From Gemmatimonadota bacterium (GTDB lineage: Bacteria > Gemmatimonadota > Gemmatimonadetes > Gemmatimonadales > Gemmatimonadaceae): a stretch of 64,000 nt of DNA. The position numbers and the translations under genes are program-made. The notes under the pieces were generated by a model. That model ran no database searches. It worked only from the letters and a program-made list of their open reading frames with translations, and was not told the DNA's origin. Location: positions 62,001 through 126,000 of the forward strand of contig JAQBQB010000026.1 in assembly GCA_028287235.1 (NCBI GenBank). The letters run 5' to 3'. This document shows positions 14,021 through 49,000 of the stretch, piece by piece; position 1 is the first letter of the stretch, and the number at the start of each line of letters is the position of its first letter.

Positions 14021-15037
14021 GTGAGAGTCACGTTGTTGATGGGCGGAACGAGCTCCGAGCGCGATGTGTCGCTCGCGTCGGGCGTTCGCGTGGCTGAGGC
14101 GCTGCGGTCGCGCGGCCACGAGGTGACGATGGTCGATCCGGCGCGCGGGCCGATCGGCGCGGAGGAGCAGCAGGCGTTGGCGAGCGGCAAAGTGGTGCAG
14201 GCCGCGCCGCCGACCCCCGAAGCACTCAAGAAGTTGGCGCGCGAGGCGCTGCCGCGGCTGGTGAACACGCTTCCGCGAATGGGGGACACCGACGTGGTCT
14301 TCATCGGCCTCCACGGAGGCACGGGCGAAGATGGGACCATTCAGTCTCTTTTGGACCTGACCGGCGTGCCGTACACCGGCAGCGGGCATTTGCCGAGTGC
14401 GCTGGGGATGGACAAGGACGTCACCAAGCAGCTGTTCCGGCAGTCGGACGTGAGCACCGCCGACTGGCTCATGGCGCCGGCGACGATCGAGGAAGTCCGT
14501 GCGGCGCTTGGCTTTCCGGTGATCGTCAAGCCATCCAAGCAGGGGTCCACTGTGGGGTTGTCGATCGTGAAGGACCCCGCCGAGCTGCAGCCCGCGATCG
14601 ACGAGGCATTCCGGCACGACGACGAGGTGATGATCGAGGCCTTCATCGCCGGCCGAGAATTCACGGTGGGCATTCTGGGAAATGTCGCGCTGCCAGTTGG
14701 CGAAATTATTCCCCAGCACGAGATTTACGACTACGAGTGCAAGTACACCCCGGGCATGACGGAAGAAGTCTTTCCCGCCGAGCTCACGGAGCAGGAAACG
14801 GCGCGCGTGCAGGAAGAAGCGCGCAAGGCGTTTCGGGCGCTCAAGCTCGGGGGCTGCGCGCGCATTGATTTTCGCATGTCGTCCGATGGTACCTTTTACT
14901 GCCTCGAAGCGAACACGCTTCCCGGCATGACGCAGACGAGTCTCATTCCACAGGCCGCGGCAGCAGCGGGCATCTCCTTTCCCGAGCTGTGCGATCGGAT
15001 CGTGCAACTCGCGCTGGACAAGCGCGGAGGCGAGTGA
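14021..15037 (+). CDS. ddl: D-alanine--D-alanine ligase
   Basis: A 338-residue ATP-grasp enzyme that joins two D-alanines for peptidoglycan precursors. Visible features: MGGTSSERDVSLASG at the N-terminus, FIGLHGGTGEDGTIQ, PYTGSGHLPSALGMDK, VKPSKQGSTVGLSIV, and the metal/substrate site CLEANTLPGMTQTSLIPQ. The GTG at 14021 lies three bases after the preceding stop. The stop overlaps the next gene's ATG, so the two are coupled. Length is normal for Ddl. Confidence 0.95.
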   Translation: MRVTLLMGGTSSERDVSLASGVRVAEALRSRGHEVTMVDPARGPIGAEEQQALASGKVVQAAPPTPEALKKLAREALPRLVNTLPRMGDTDVVFIGLHGGTGEDGTIQSLLDLTGVPYTGSGHLPSALGMDKDVTKQLFRQSDVSTADWLMAPATIEEVRAALGFPVIVKPSKQGSTVGLSIVKDPAELQPAIDEAFRHDDEVMIEAFIAGREFTVGILGNVALPVGEIIPQHEIYDYECKYTPGMTEEVFPAELTEQETARVQEEARKAFRALKLGGCARIDFRMSSDGTFYCLEANTLPGMTQTSLIPQAAAAAGISFPELCDRIVQLALDKRGGE

Positions 15038-18934: not shown

Positions 18935-18949
18935 AGAATCCAGGACGCT

Positions 18950-19080
18950 CGCAGCTGTCAGCTCTCTGCTCGCAGCACGTTGCTGGGGCGGGCTTTCATT
19001 GCCGCGATGCCGGCGTTGCGACCAGGAAGACGAGCCCAAGCAGCGAGCTGTGAGCTAGCGAGCTGTGAGTCATGAGCTTC
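18950..19080. repeat. Dispersed palindromic repeat, copy A
   Basis: Contains CCAAGCAGCGAGCTGTGAGC followed by TAGCGAGCTG. Over about 35 bases from 19031 it differs by one base from copy B near 30727. The left half (GCTCGCAGC...TTGCTGGGGC) is a degenerate inverted counterpart. It fills the gap between two convergent genes, just before a terminator. Confidence 0.75.
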
Positions 19081-30068: not shown

Positions 30069-30629
30069 ATGCATGTAACCGAAGCCATTCAGCAGCGCCG
30101 GTCGGTCAAGCGCTTTACCGACCGCCCCATTTCCCGGGCCGAGCTCGAGACCTTACTCTCCGCCGCGACGCTCGCACCGAATCACAAGCTCACGCAACCG
30201 TGGCGCTTTTACGTGTTGGGCCCCGAGGCGCGCTACGCCTACGGCCTGGCGCTGGGCGCGCGCAAAGCGAAAAAGATCGAGGACCCCCAGGCCGCGCGCA
30301 CGATGCGCGAAAACGTCGCCAACGAACACCGCGCGCTGCCAAGCATGATCGCGGTCGCGATCGTGACGAGCGAGAGCCCGGAGACTTCGGAGGAGGACTA
30401 CGCGGCGGTGATGATGGGCATCCAGAATCTCGCGCTCGCGGCAGTAGAGATGGGGCTGGGAACGCACATCAAGACTGGGGCGGTAATGAGCGATCCGGCG
30501 GCACGCGGGGCGGCTGGCGTCCGCGAAGGGGAGAGGATCGTGGCGGTAGTGAATGTCGGGGAGCCGGTTGAGATGACGCCGGCGAAGAAGAGGGAAGCGG
30601 CAGAAGCATTCACTACTTGGGTGGCGTAG
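30069..30629 (+). CDS. Nitroreductase-family flavoprotein
   Basis: A 186-residue FMN-dependent oxidoreductase of the nitroreductase fold. Conserved text: IQQRRSVKRFTDRPI at the N-terminus (FMN phosphate binding), APNHKLTQPWRFYVL, and the helix MGIQNLALAAVEMGLGTHIK. The natural substrate is unknown; members reduce nitro compounds, flavins or quinones. It sits 33 bases downstream of idi and may share its transcript. A dispersed repeat follows it. Confidence 0.92.
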   Translation: MHVTEAIQQRRSVKRFTDRPISRAELETLLSAATLAPNHKLTQPWRFYVLGPEARYAYGLALGARKAKKIEDPQAARTMRENVANEHRALPSMIAVAIVTSESPETSEEDYAAVMMGIQNLALAAVEMGLGTHIKTGAVMSDPAARGAAGVREGERIVAVVNVGEPVEMTPAKKREAAEAFTTWVA

Positions 30630-30635
30630 GAAATC

Positions 30636-30776
30636 GGCTCGCTGCTGGGGGTTCGGTGCTCACGGCTCGCGACTTGGACTCGCTTTCCAGCTCGCAATGC
30701 CGTGCCGGGCGATTCGACCGTGAAGGCGAGTCCAAGCAGCGAGCTGTGAGCTAGCGAGCTGCCAGCAGCGAGCATC
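30636..30776. repeat. Dispersed palindromic repeat, copy B
   Basis: Outer arms CTCGCTGCTGG (30638-30648) and CCAGCAGCGAG (30762-30772) are perfect. Inner 26-base arms at 30658-30683 and 30726-30751 pair with three mismatches. It separates the nitroreductase and four-helix-bundle genes. Its right arm is repeated in inverse at copy C. Confidence 0.85.
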
Positions 30777-31275
30777 GGATTGCGCCGCGGTGCAGCCGAT
30801 TGATGCCGCTCGGCGCAAGTGGGCGCGGTACGATCGCGCATGCGCGACTTCAAGAACCTCTTGGTGTGGCAGCGGGCGCACGCGCTCTCAGTGTCGATGC
30901 ACGTGACGGCGCGCCGATTTCCGCGGAGCGGATTCGGCAACCTGAGATCGCAGCTCGAGCGCGCGACGGATTCCATTGCGACGAACATCGTCGAGGGCTG
31001 CGGAGCGGCGACTCAGAAAGAGTTCGCGCGCTACCTCGACATCTCGATCAAGTCGGCGAACGAAACCGAGCACCATCTATTGGCGGCTCGGGATCGAGAC
31101 GCCTTGCCGGCCGAAGGGTGGCAGCCGCTGACTGCCGAATTGATCGAGATCCGCCGGATGCTCTACTCTCTGCGCAAGAAAGTCCTGCTCGACGCAGAAG
31201 GCTCGTGATACGCGAAGAGCTCGAAGCTGAAAGCTCGGTGCTCACAGCTCGCTGCTTGGACTCGCCTTCACGGTC
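30716..31275 (+). mobile_element. Candidate cassette: four-helix-bundle gene between 36-bp inverted repeats
   Basis: Bases 30716-30751 and 31240-31275 are exact reverse complements over 36 bases. They enclose one gene (30840-31208), with 88 and 31 bases of margin. No transposase is present and I saw no target-site duplication. The repeats belong to a family also found at about 19.0, 48.9 and 56.7 kb. The arrangement could mark a mobile or repeat-associated gene, or a chance pairing of two repeat copies. Confidence 0.5.
30840..31208 (+). CDS. Four-helix bundle protein (S23/TIGR02436 type)
   Basis: A 122-residue helical protein. The opening MRDFKNLLVWQRAHALSV and the central SQLERATDSIATNIVEGCG are the signatures of the family first seen in 23S rRNA intervening sequences. 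The family is related to the Avd accessory proteins of diversity-generating retroelements, which bind nucleic acid and form pentamers. No reverse transcriptase is nearby. The ATG at 30840 gives the standard start. It is bracketed by inverted copies of a palindromic repeat, which is unusual for a chromosomal gene. Confidence 0.9.
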   Translation: MRDFKNLLVWQRAHALSVSMHVTARRFPRSGFGNLRSQLERATDSIATNIVEGCGAATQKEFARYLDISIKSANETEHHLLAARDRDALPAEGWQPLTAELIEIRRMLYSLRKKVLLDAEGS

Positions 31276-31360
31276 CCAGCGCCAGCCGGAGCACCGCGAT
31301 CTCAGACCCCGAGCCCCAGCAAAGAGCCACGAGCGCCGAGCTACGAGCCGTGAGCCTCTA
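31213..31360. repeat. Dispersed palindromic repeat, copy C
   Basis: Begins with GAAGAGCTCGAAGCTGAAAG and contains GCTCACAGCTCGCTGCTTGG at 31240. The right half (CGAGCCCCAGCAAAGAGCCA, then CGAGCTACGAGCCGTGAGCC) is its degenerate inverted counterpart. It lies between the four-helix-bundle gene and the convergent transpeptidase gene. Confidence 0.8.
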
Positions 31361-32164
31361 CTCAGCCGCCCCGACCCACGGGTCACCCGCCATCCACCCC
31401 TTATCCGGCGCGAAGAGAAATACCATTGCTCCCCCCGCCAACTTGGGCAGTAGCTCCTTCGCGCGCGCCGGCTCCATCGCCGGGCAACCCTCGCTGCGCC
31501 CAGCCCTGGTGGGCGTCACGTACGGTGCGCCGTGCGCAACCACGCGGCGGGCGAGGGCATTCGTGTTGAAGCCGTCCGACACACCCTGCAAGCGCAGACC
31601 GATCGAGCTGTACGGCTGGCCGCCGGTGTGGCCATGGAAGTCGTACGTCGCCTGCGTCAGGTAGAGACCGAGCGACGTCGCGGCGCTGTTTGGCGTGTTC
31701 GAGAACTTCGTTGGGACGCCGTACTGCGACGTCGACGAGCCGCGGCCGTGGGCGACGGTGAACGGACCTTCCACGATCTTTAGAGAATTCATATCGAAGA
31801 CGTAGCCGCGCGGCGTCGTGCTCGGCAGGCCGTAGTCGACGAAGTAGAGATAGGGCTTCTTCACGTCGTTCGGGTGCGCCGTCTTGTACGCGAAATAGCT
31901 TCGAAACGCGTCGTCGAGCGCCTTGGGATGGCTGAGCTGCGCGACGGCGCCCGACAGTGCGCCCAGGGCGGCCTGGACGTTCGAGGCGAGTGTACTAGTC
32001 GAGGTCGTCACAGGGTCAGACGGCTTCGGCTTGCCGATCACGAGCGTGGTGGCCGCGGTAAGCACCGGACCCGACTGGTTGGCGCTTGGGACGAAGTGCG
32101 TACCCACAAGGGCAACGGCGGTCACGCCGAGTAGAACATTCTGGACGTATTTCGGTGGACGCAT
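31358..32164 (-). CDS. Murein L,D-transpeptidase catalytic-domain protein
   Basis: A 268-residue exported protein with an N-terminal signal/membrane segment (VLLGVTAVALVGTHFVPSA) and a YkuD_2-type catalytic domain. The conserved pieces are VDYGLPSTTPRGYVFDM, the histidine loop VAHGRGSS and the catalytic cysteine in AGRSEGCPAM. Such enzymes form or edit 3-3 or protein-linked crosslinks in peptidoglycan. The ATG at 32164 precedes the signal segment. The linker at residues 30-70 is serine/threonine-rich, as expected for an envelope protein. Confidence 0.9.
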   Translation of the reverse strand: MRPPKYVQNVLLGVTAVALVGTHFVPSANQSGPVLTAATTLVIGKPKPSDPVTTSTSTLASNVQAALGALSGAVAQLSHPKALDDAFRSYFAYKTAHPNDVKKPYLYFVDYGLPSTTPRGYVFDMNSLKIVEGPFTVAHGRGSSTSQYGVPTKFSNTPNSAATSLGLYLTQATYDFHGHTGGQPYSSIGLRLQGVSDGFNTNALARRVVAHGAPYVTPTRAGRSEGCPAMEPARAKELLPKLAGGAMVFLFAPDKGWMAGDPWVGAAE

Positions 32165-48837: not shown

Positions 48838-49000
48838 GCGCGGCTCGCTGCTCTGGGCCAGTGGAACTCTAGCTCATAGCTGTCAGCTCGTGACTCACGG
48901 CTCGCTGCTGGGGCTCGCCGTAGGCATCGCGATGCCTCGGGCCGAGCCCCAGCAGCGAGCCGTGAGCTCCGAGCTACCAGCTCCGAGCTCACGAACCGCT
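48838..49000. repeat. Dispersed palindromic repeat, copy D (perfect 24-bp arms)
   Basis: Arms at 48894-48917 and 48943-48966 are exact 24-base reverse complements (CTCACGGCTCGCTGCTGGGG and onward). The centre holds its own palindrome AGGCATCGCGATGCCT (48922-48937). It lies between two convergent genes and could end both transcripts as a hairpin. Confidence 0.9.

Follow-up and report, generated by a model that had tools for sequence, protein, structure and literature searches.

An IVP gene between inverted heptamer arrays in a Gemmatimonadaceae genome, probably a small mobile element akin to the 23S rRNA intervening sequence

The rRNA intervening sequences (IVS) with an S23p ORF, as in Leptospira and Coxiella, carry a single ORF between stem-forming terminal inverted repeats, are inserted at helix tips and are suspected to be mobile. 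The IVS of Coxiella has a 28-bp terminal stem and is excised by RNase III, and its mobility is merely conjectured (Warrier 2016, PMC4990558). The rRNA intervening-sequence protein (IVP) belongs to PF05635/TIGR02436, and the homology of PF05635 with Avd has been noted (PMC10053308). In the RAYT-REP systems one gene has inverted palindromic flanks, with many solo repeats per genome and genome-specific repeat families. Heptameric repeats of cyanobacteria, the STRRs, were reportedly described by Mazel in 1990. Heptamers of the GGGAATC/GGGGATT type occur in Xanthomonas and Nostoc, with 70-75 inverted pairs in Xanthomonas (Rehm 2015, PMC4692102), and TAACTGA heptamers in Beggiatoaceae, cyanobacteria and Bacteroidetes (MacGregor 2015, PMC4679880). 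The available text of both papers links no gene to the repeats and does not use the terms S23, four helix or intervening. It settles neither their origin nor their function, with "no mechanism is evident" in one (PMC4679880) and "remains to be elucidated" in the other (PMC4692102). Among open PMC papers, none joining PF05635 genes with heptamer arrays was found.

The window, that is, the whole 64-kb stretch of DNA analysed, corresponds to C9:62001-126000 of a 5.73-Mb Gemmatimonadaceae genome. The sequence-only reading had described a perfect 36-bp inverted repeat enclosing one 122-codon ORF and nothing else, and this proved exact: the two copies are reverse complements without a mismatch and form the sole gene-enclosing inverted pair of the window, where a search at E<1e-3 for inverted copies within 1.5 kb of each other gave no second pair. 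The 36-mers are a portion of two longer hairpins of ~137 nt each, which match each other at 73% over 139 nt in inverted orientation and at 67% in direct orientation. Both hairpins have a 7-nt period (units GCTCGCT, GCTGGGG, GTTCGGT, GCTCACG, GCTCGCG) and wholly fill the junction between the nitroreductase and YkuD stops, leaving room for the IVP gene only; no recognisable transposase is present in the element. The predicted RNA fold has 108 pairs with a span of over 350 nt, and in predicted transcripts a long stem closes on a loop that holds the gene. Feature coordinates are detailed in Table 1.

Table 1. Features of the IVP locus and related hairpins, in window coordinates
Feature	Position	Strand	Evidence or remark
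IVP / four-helix-bundle gene, 122 codons (PF05635, TIGR02436)	30840..31208 (ATG to end of stop)	+	Profile matches, AlphaFold, dN/dS
Left hairpin, inverted 7-nt unit arrays (GCTCNNN) around a core	30637..30773	.	75% self-complementary
Right hairpin	31219..31356	.	Inverted relative to left hairpin
36-bp perfect inverted repeat, left copy	30716..30751	+	
36-bp perfect inverted repeat, right copy	31240..31275	-	
Solo hairpin of the same family, without gene	18947..19080 (approximate)	.	7-nt units
Solo hairpin of the same family, without gene	48871..48989	.	7-nt units; 83% self-complementary
Nitroreductase-family gene, left neighbour	30069..30629	+	Hairpin begins 8 nt past its stop
YkuD_2 L,D-transpeptidase gene, right neighbour	31358..32164	-	Stop abuts right hairpin

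As in an IVS, the window copy has an IVP ORF between complementary ends. It is called IVS-like only, and not an rRNA IVS, because it is located outside an rRNA gene, between the nitroreductase and ykuD genes. Unlike rRNA IVS, this copy and nearly all the others studied lie between protein genes, gene-less solo copies exist, and each locus has arms built from ~7-bp units of its own.

The protein passed both curated cut-offs, with 93.9 bits against 33.8 for PF05635 (E 8.8e-27) and 94.4 against 24 for TIGR02436. Its AlphaFold model has four helices (mean pLDDT 95.4) and is a four-helix bundle by comparison with Foldseek, with a TM-score of 0.90 to XCC0516 (2gsc); further matches were BT_0352 (2rld) and Avd (4dwl, 8ub7), the latter at about 0.76. 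The kinship of IVP with Avd that had been proposed from sequence is thus borne out by the TM-score of 0.76 to 4dwl. Avd is a pentamer, with which the five chains present in both 2gsc and 2rld agree. The locus shares this fold with DGR Avd but, unlike DGR, has no RT, TR or VR near the IVP gene, the neighbours being nitroreductase and YkuD. The pI of the window protein is 9.35 and its dN/dS against the closest relatives about 0.2-0.3; across the family, in-domain stops were absent from 60/60 IVP genes, and dN/dS was about 0.06-0.33 where measurable. IVP matches were also observed inside open frames of 538-768 codons (G017:C2:4973452, G058:C58:28694, G025:C3:65950, G051:C226:4043), which could be fusions or merely long frames.

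Six searched genomes of the genus contained 4-9 IVP genes each. Stretches of ~20 kb around each of 60 IVP genes, taken from 26 Gemmatimonadaceae genomes, were compared, the loci being picked by profile score and contig size, blind to repeats. Inverted-repeat pairs enclosed 42 of the 60 genes, versus 11 other inverted clusters in 1.18 Mb; one of these lies at the L088 gene itself and one at a frameshifted IVP, so that about 9 remain. This frameshifted pseudogene (L067, about 14368-14995) is still flanked by a 69-nt inverted repeat. When the 350 nt upstream were locally aligned with the reverse complement of the 350 nt downstream, 44/60 IVP genes scored at least 25, versus 13/1757 shifted control positions (Fisher 6e-63); in direct orientation merely 7/60 did. 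The mean lag-7 identity (autocorrelation) of the arms was 0.51 versus 0.27 in the background, with harmonics at 14, 21 and 28, and a few arms had a period of 8, 9 or 13. Arrays of AGAGTTG, for example, precede one gene and CAACTCT follows it; other units are ATCGTGA, GAGCGTG and TGCAGAG. The inner spacing between arms had a median of 459 nt, 80% of the values falling within 431-538. In other phyla, represented by three genomes of Acidobacteriota, two of Bacteroidota and one MAG with the label Actinomycetota, matching arms (score ≥18) were found in 21/23 complete IVP loci versus 1/506 cross pairs, and an IVP gene between mirror-image heptamer arrays occurs in at least five bacterial phyla. Chance or a low-complexity background was rejected by the positional and cross-pair controls.

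The arms vary from locus to locus and match within each locus, and related solo arrays or hairpins are present in the same genomes. The link between gene family and repeats is far stronger and wider than could be seen from the window. Other such genes share the inverted flanks and not the repeat itself, each gene having its own unit; a single sequence-recognised repeat family was rejected, as arms differ between loci and seldom match other genomes. Plain terminators or insulators were also discarded, since simple arms such as the AGAGTTG arrays lack an internal complement and pair with the opposite arm. Some IVP clades have no arms (the atpA-side orthologs L093/L100/L105, and also L081/L082). 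Arm-less orthologs lie beside an apparent atpA in three species of the genus (G000:C25:54595, G003:C12:39205, G004:C9:157542) and are perhaps a domesticated version. A second, TTAGGGT-like heptamer family was observed in the genome of the window, as IVP arms at L013 (G000:C12:108152) and as a solo array at L010.

Filled and empty versions of the same, otherwise almost identical sites demonstrated that array, gene and inverted array insert as one unit in relatives elsewhere. Plasmid C of Trichormus variabilis is filled, and plasmids of Microchaete, Tolypothrix, Aulosira and Nostoc (97.5% identity) are empty at this site. The insert of 428 bp runs from AAATCAGAATTCAGAAGTCAG through the gene to CTGACTCCTGACTCCTGAGTTCTTCTTT, and GTAAT (5 bp) stands on both sides of it and once in the empty site; this is the only clean target duplication, the other sites being blurred. 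Scytonema has the same insert minus two units, and at this site in Nostoc C052 pC052_E there are heptamers together with a truncated gene. At a second site, Nostoc C052 and N. edaphicum are filled and C057 is empty, and Nostoc ATCC 53789 pNsp_c (L230 1525-1749) has an inverted heptamer hairpin without an IVP gene. Picosynechococcus 7003 is filled and 7002 empty. In Azospirillum lipoferum 4B, one 23S rRNA copy has a 473-nt insert with GAGGACG-type arms, heptameric like those of the free-standing copies, and an IVP frame, and another has a 19-nt hairpin tip instead; because this insert has the same anatomy, the classical rRNA IVS is counted as one instance of the unit of array, gene and inverted array. 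For the window copy itself, absence was seen only in a diverged ortholog: in G004 the nitroreductase and ykuD genes are adjacent, without the element or window-type hairpins, and the sequences are too diverged for boundaries or a target duplication to be read. Presence/absence polymorphism, which the sequence-only reading had asked for in relatives, was thus found in cyanobacterial plasmids and in the Azospirillum 23S rRNA genes, with this diverged ortholog for the window copy.

The elements of cyanobacterial plasmids lie between cas6/cas4, nrdB/nrdA, cas10/cmr3 and tra/virB genes, and the insertions sit between genes and operon members, leaving them unbroken. IVP genes at L109, L111 and L217, all on cyanobacterial plasmids, are within type I-D and III-B cas operons. 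The 23S rRNA IVP has been listed as CRISPR-linked in genome mining (PMC10910872), which may be due to such insertions in cas operons.

Heptamer arrays are absent before insertion from the sites whose empty version is clean (Microchaete, N. carneum, PCC 7002 and the A. lipoferum 23S rRNA). This bears on the possibility that heptamer hairpins are an independent dispersed repeat and that IVP genes prefer to insert into hairpin tips, the arms being split host repeats. Two observations would agree with such an origin: the genome of the window also has solo hairpins of this family, and the 23S rRNA IVS is located at a hairpin tip. However, both arrays come with the gene at these sites, and arms still match through unit turnover in vertical orthologs, so split host repeats are considered unlikely.

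This turnover was evident upstream of ychF (identified by its N-terminal sequence), where 11 of the 60 IVP genes are divergently located. Eight of these loci belong to one supported clade (98/94), and two more groups are separate arrivals there. The units of the eight orthologs differ outright (GTGAGTT, TTGAGAC, the 8-mer AGGACGAG and the 9-mer GAAGCACGG), and yet the left arm at each locus matches the right arm of that locus with a median score of 27.5, the value between loci being 11 (permutation p 5e-5). The arm sequence thus turns over and the left-right complementarity stays; we infer that the latter is kept by arm-to-arm copying or by selection on the stem. Vertical inheritance at such sites indicates that movement is infrequent. 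The ychF-side genes (L053, L055, L060, L062, L063, L073, L074, L084, L086-L088) are spread over many genera of Gemmatimonadaceae; at least 2-3 independent arrivals took place at ychF, and the association recurs in a Porphyromonadaceae genome (Bacteroidota locus L046). An invertible switch was rejected, as the gene orientation relative to ychF is identical at 11/11 loci.

The vertical retention at ychF in many genera, the purifying selection on IVP genes and the insertion between genes or operon members without disruption are also what would be expected of a regulatory RNA stem (insulator, RNase III site or terminator) selected by the host around a domesticated nucleic-acid-binding protein, mobility being rare cassette recombination. 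On the other hand, like insertions have reached 23S rRNA, cas, nrd and virB/tra among other loci, and for several of these an empty allelic site is known as well. Some copies are truncated or frameshifted, and the arms have genome-specific dispersed relatives; host regulation is, accordingly, a quite improbable origin of the arms.

Solo repeats of the flanking family, which the sequence-only reading had noted across the window, are present in the same genome, including the two of Table 1. The window hairpin arm has 11 scored matches in its own genome, mostly solo and intergenic where read. Sequences resembling the arms of an IVP gene were 60-fold denser in that gene's own genome than in other genomes of the family (17.5 versus 0.29 sites/Mb). 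Strict heptamer arrays numbered 27 within 300 nt of the 60 IVP genes and 42 in the remainder. None was detected in the 730 kb taken from ten IVP-less genomes, and 6 were present in 303 kb from ten IVP-rich genomes (p 6e-4 counted by arrays, in a small sample with kinship incompletely controlled). Counted by genome, the matched random sample gave 4/10 IVP-rich versus 0/10 IVP-less (p 0.087, not significant), and all 26 IVP-bearing genomes gave 12/26 versus 0/10 (p 0.008, with unequal sampling). Such a distribution would follow from a dependence of solo arrays on the IVP gene in trans. Solo repeats are more numerous than IVP genes, one half of what the sequence-only reading had named as adverse; such an excess would, however, be expected of by-products, and the sampled IVP-less genomes had no heptamer arrays.

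The Y1 transposase PF01797 was absent from 11/12 IVP-rich genomes, that of the window among them, and the reverse transcriptase PF00078 (RVT_1) from 8/12; the genomes lacking them include near-complete ones with 8-11 IVP genes, and the genome of the window has a single PF00078 match, on another contig (C2). Despite inverted palindromes around a single gene that resemble RAYT-REP and an Avd-like fold (TM-score 0.76), these gaps led to the rejection of both a RAYT origin, in which a Y1 transposase would move the repeats, and a general dependence on RT, with IVP as an Avd-like cofactor of a host reverse transcriptase, the pair being very improbable. The comparison with RAYT drawn from sequence is a useful analogy and wrong as kinship: the element has no Y1/HUH transposase, its PF05635 protein has an unrelated fold, and its repeats are heptamers that differ between loci and not one conserved family.

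The window thus probably contains a small mobile element in a single copy, with an IVP gene bracketed by inverted arrays of ~7-bp units, as a free-standing form of the 23S rRNA IVS; the element is IVS-like and free-standing, and its mobility is probable. An action of the IVP protein on the repeat, raised by the sequence-only reading, is likely as a putative function. Movement would be guided by structure, a stem-loop of the element RNA or single-stranded DNA, and not by a fixed end sequence; insertion of the 23S rRNA copy at a hairpin tip fits a targeting of structured RNA or DNA. The IVP, a putative Avd-like nucleic-acid-binding oligomer, may hold the stem or the periodic array and recruit host enzymes, which would break and join. 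One arm could be copied from the opposite arm by hairpin templating or gene conversion, so that complementarity is kept while unit sequence and number drift, and IVP activity in trans may spread gene-less hairpins such as those at 18.9 and 48.9 kb. The best reading of the solo repeats is as by-products of this IVS-like mobile element.

A wider proposal is offered tentatively: there may be a class of elements that recognise their own ends by structure or periodicity and not by sequence. In this class an Avd-like protein of ~120 aa, enclosed by heptamer arrays that match each other, would also seed gene-less hairpins in trans, and the class could be the common source of rRNA IVS as well as of the heptamer repeats dispersed in cyanobacteria, Xanthomonas, Bacteroidota and Gemmatimonadota. 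The known heptameric repeats resemble the element arrays in their 7-bp units, intergenic location and frequent inverted pairs, and here the arrays are tied to IVP.

Complementary arms that persist despite sequence turnover differ from the ends of known transposons, which are fixed, and point to mobility guided by structure or to copying between the arms. The rRNA intervening sequences have stood without an explained origin for more than 30 years, and intergenic heptamers without a function or vector. The IVP heptamer element is a candidate origin for the heptamer repeats scattered through many bacterial genomes, and with IVS and heptamers tied to one gene family that has natural empty sites, both questions become testable in culturable cyanobacteria.
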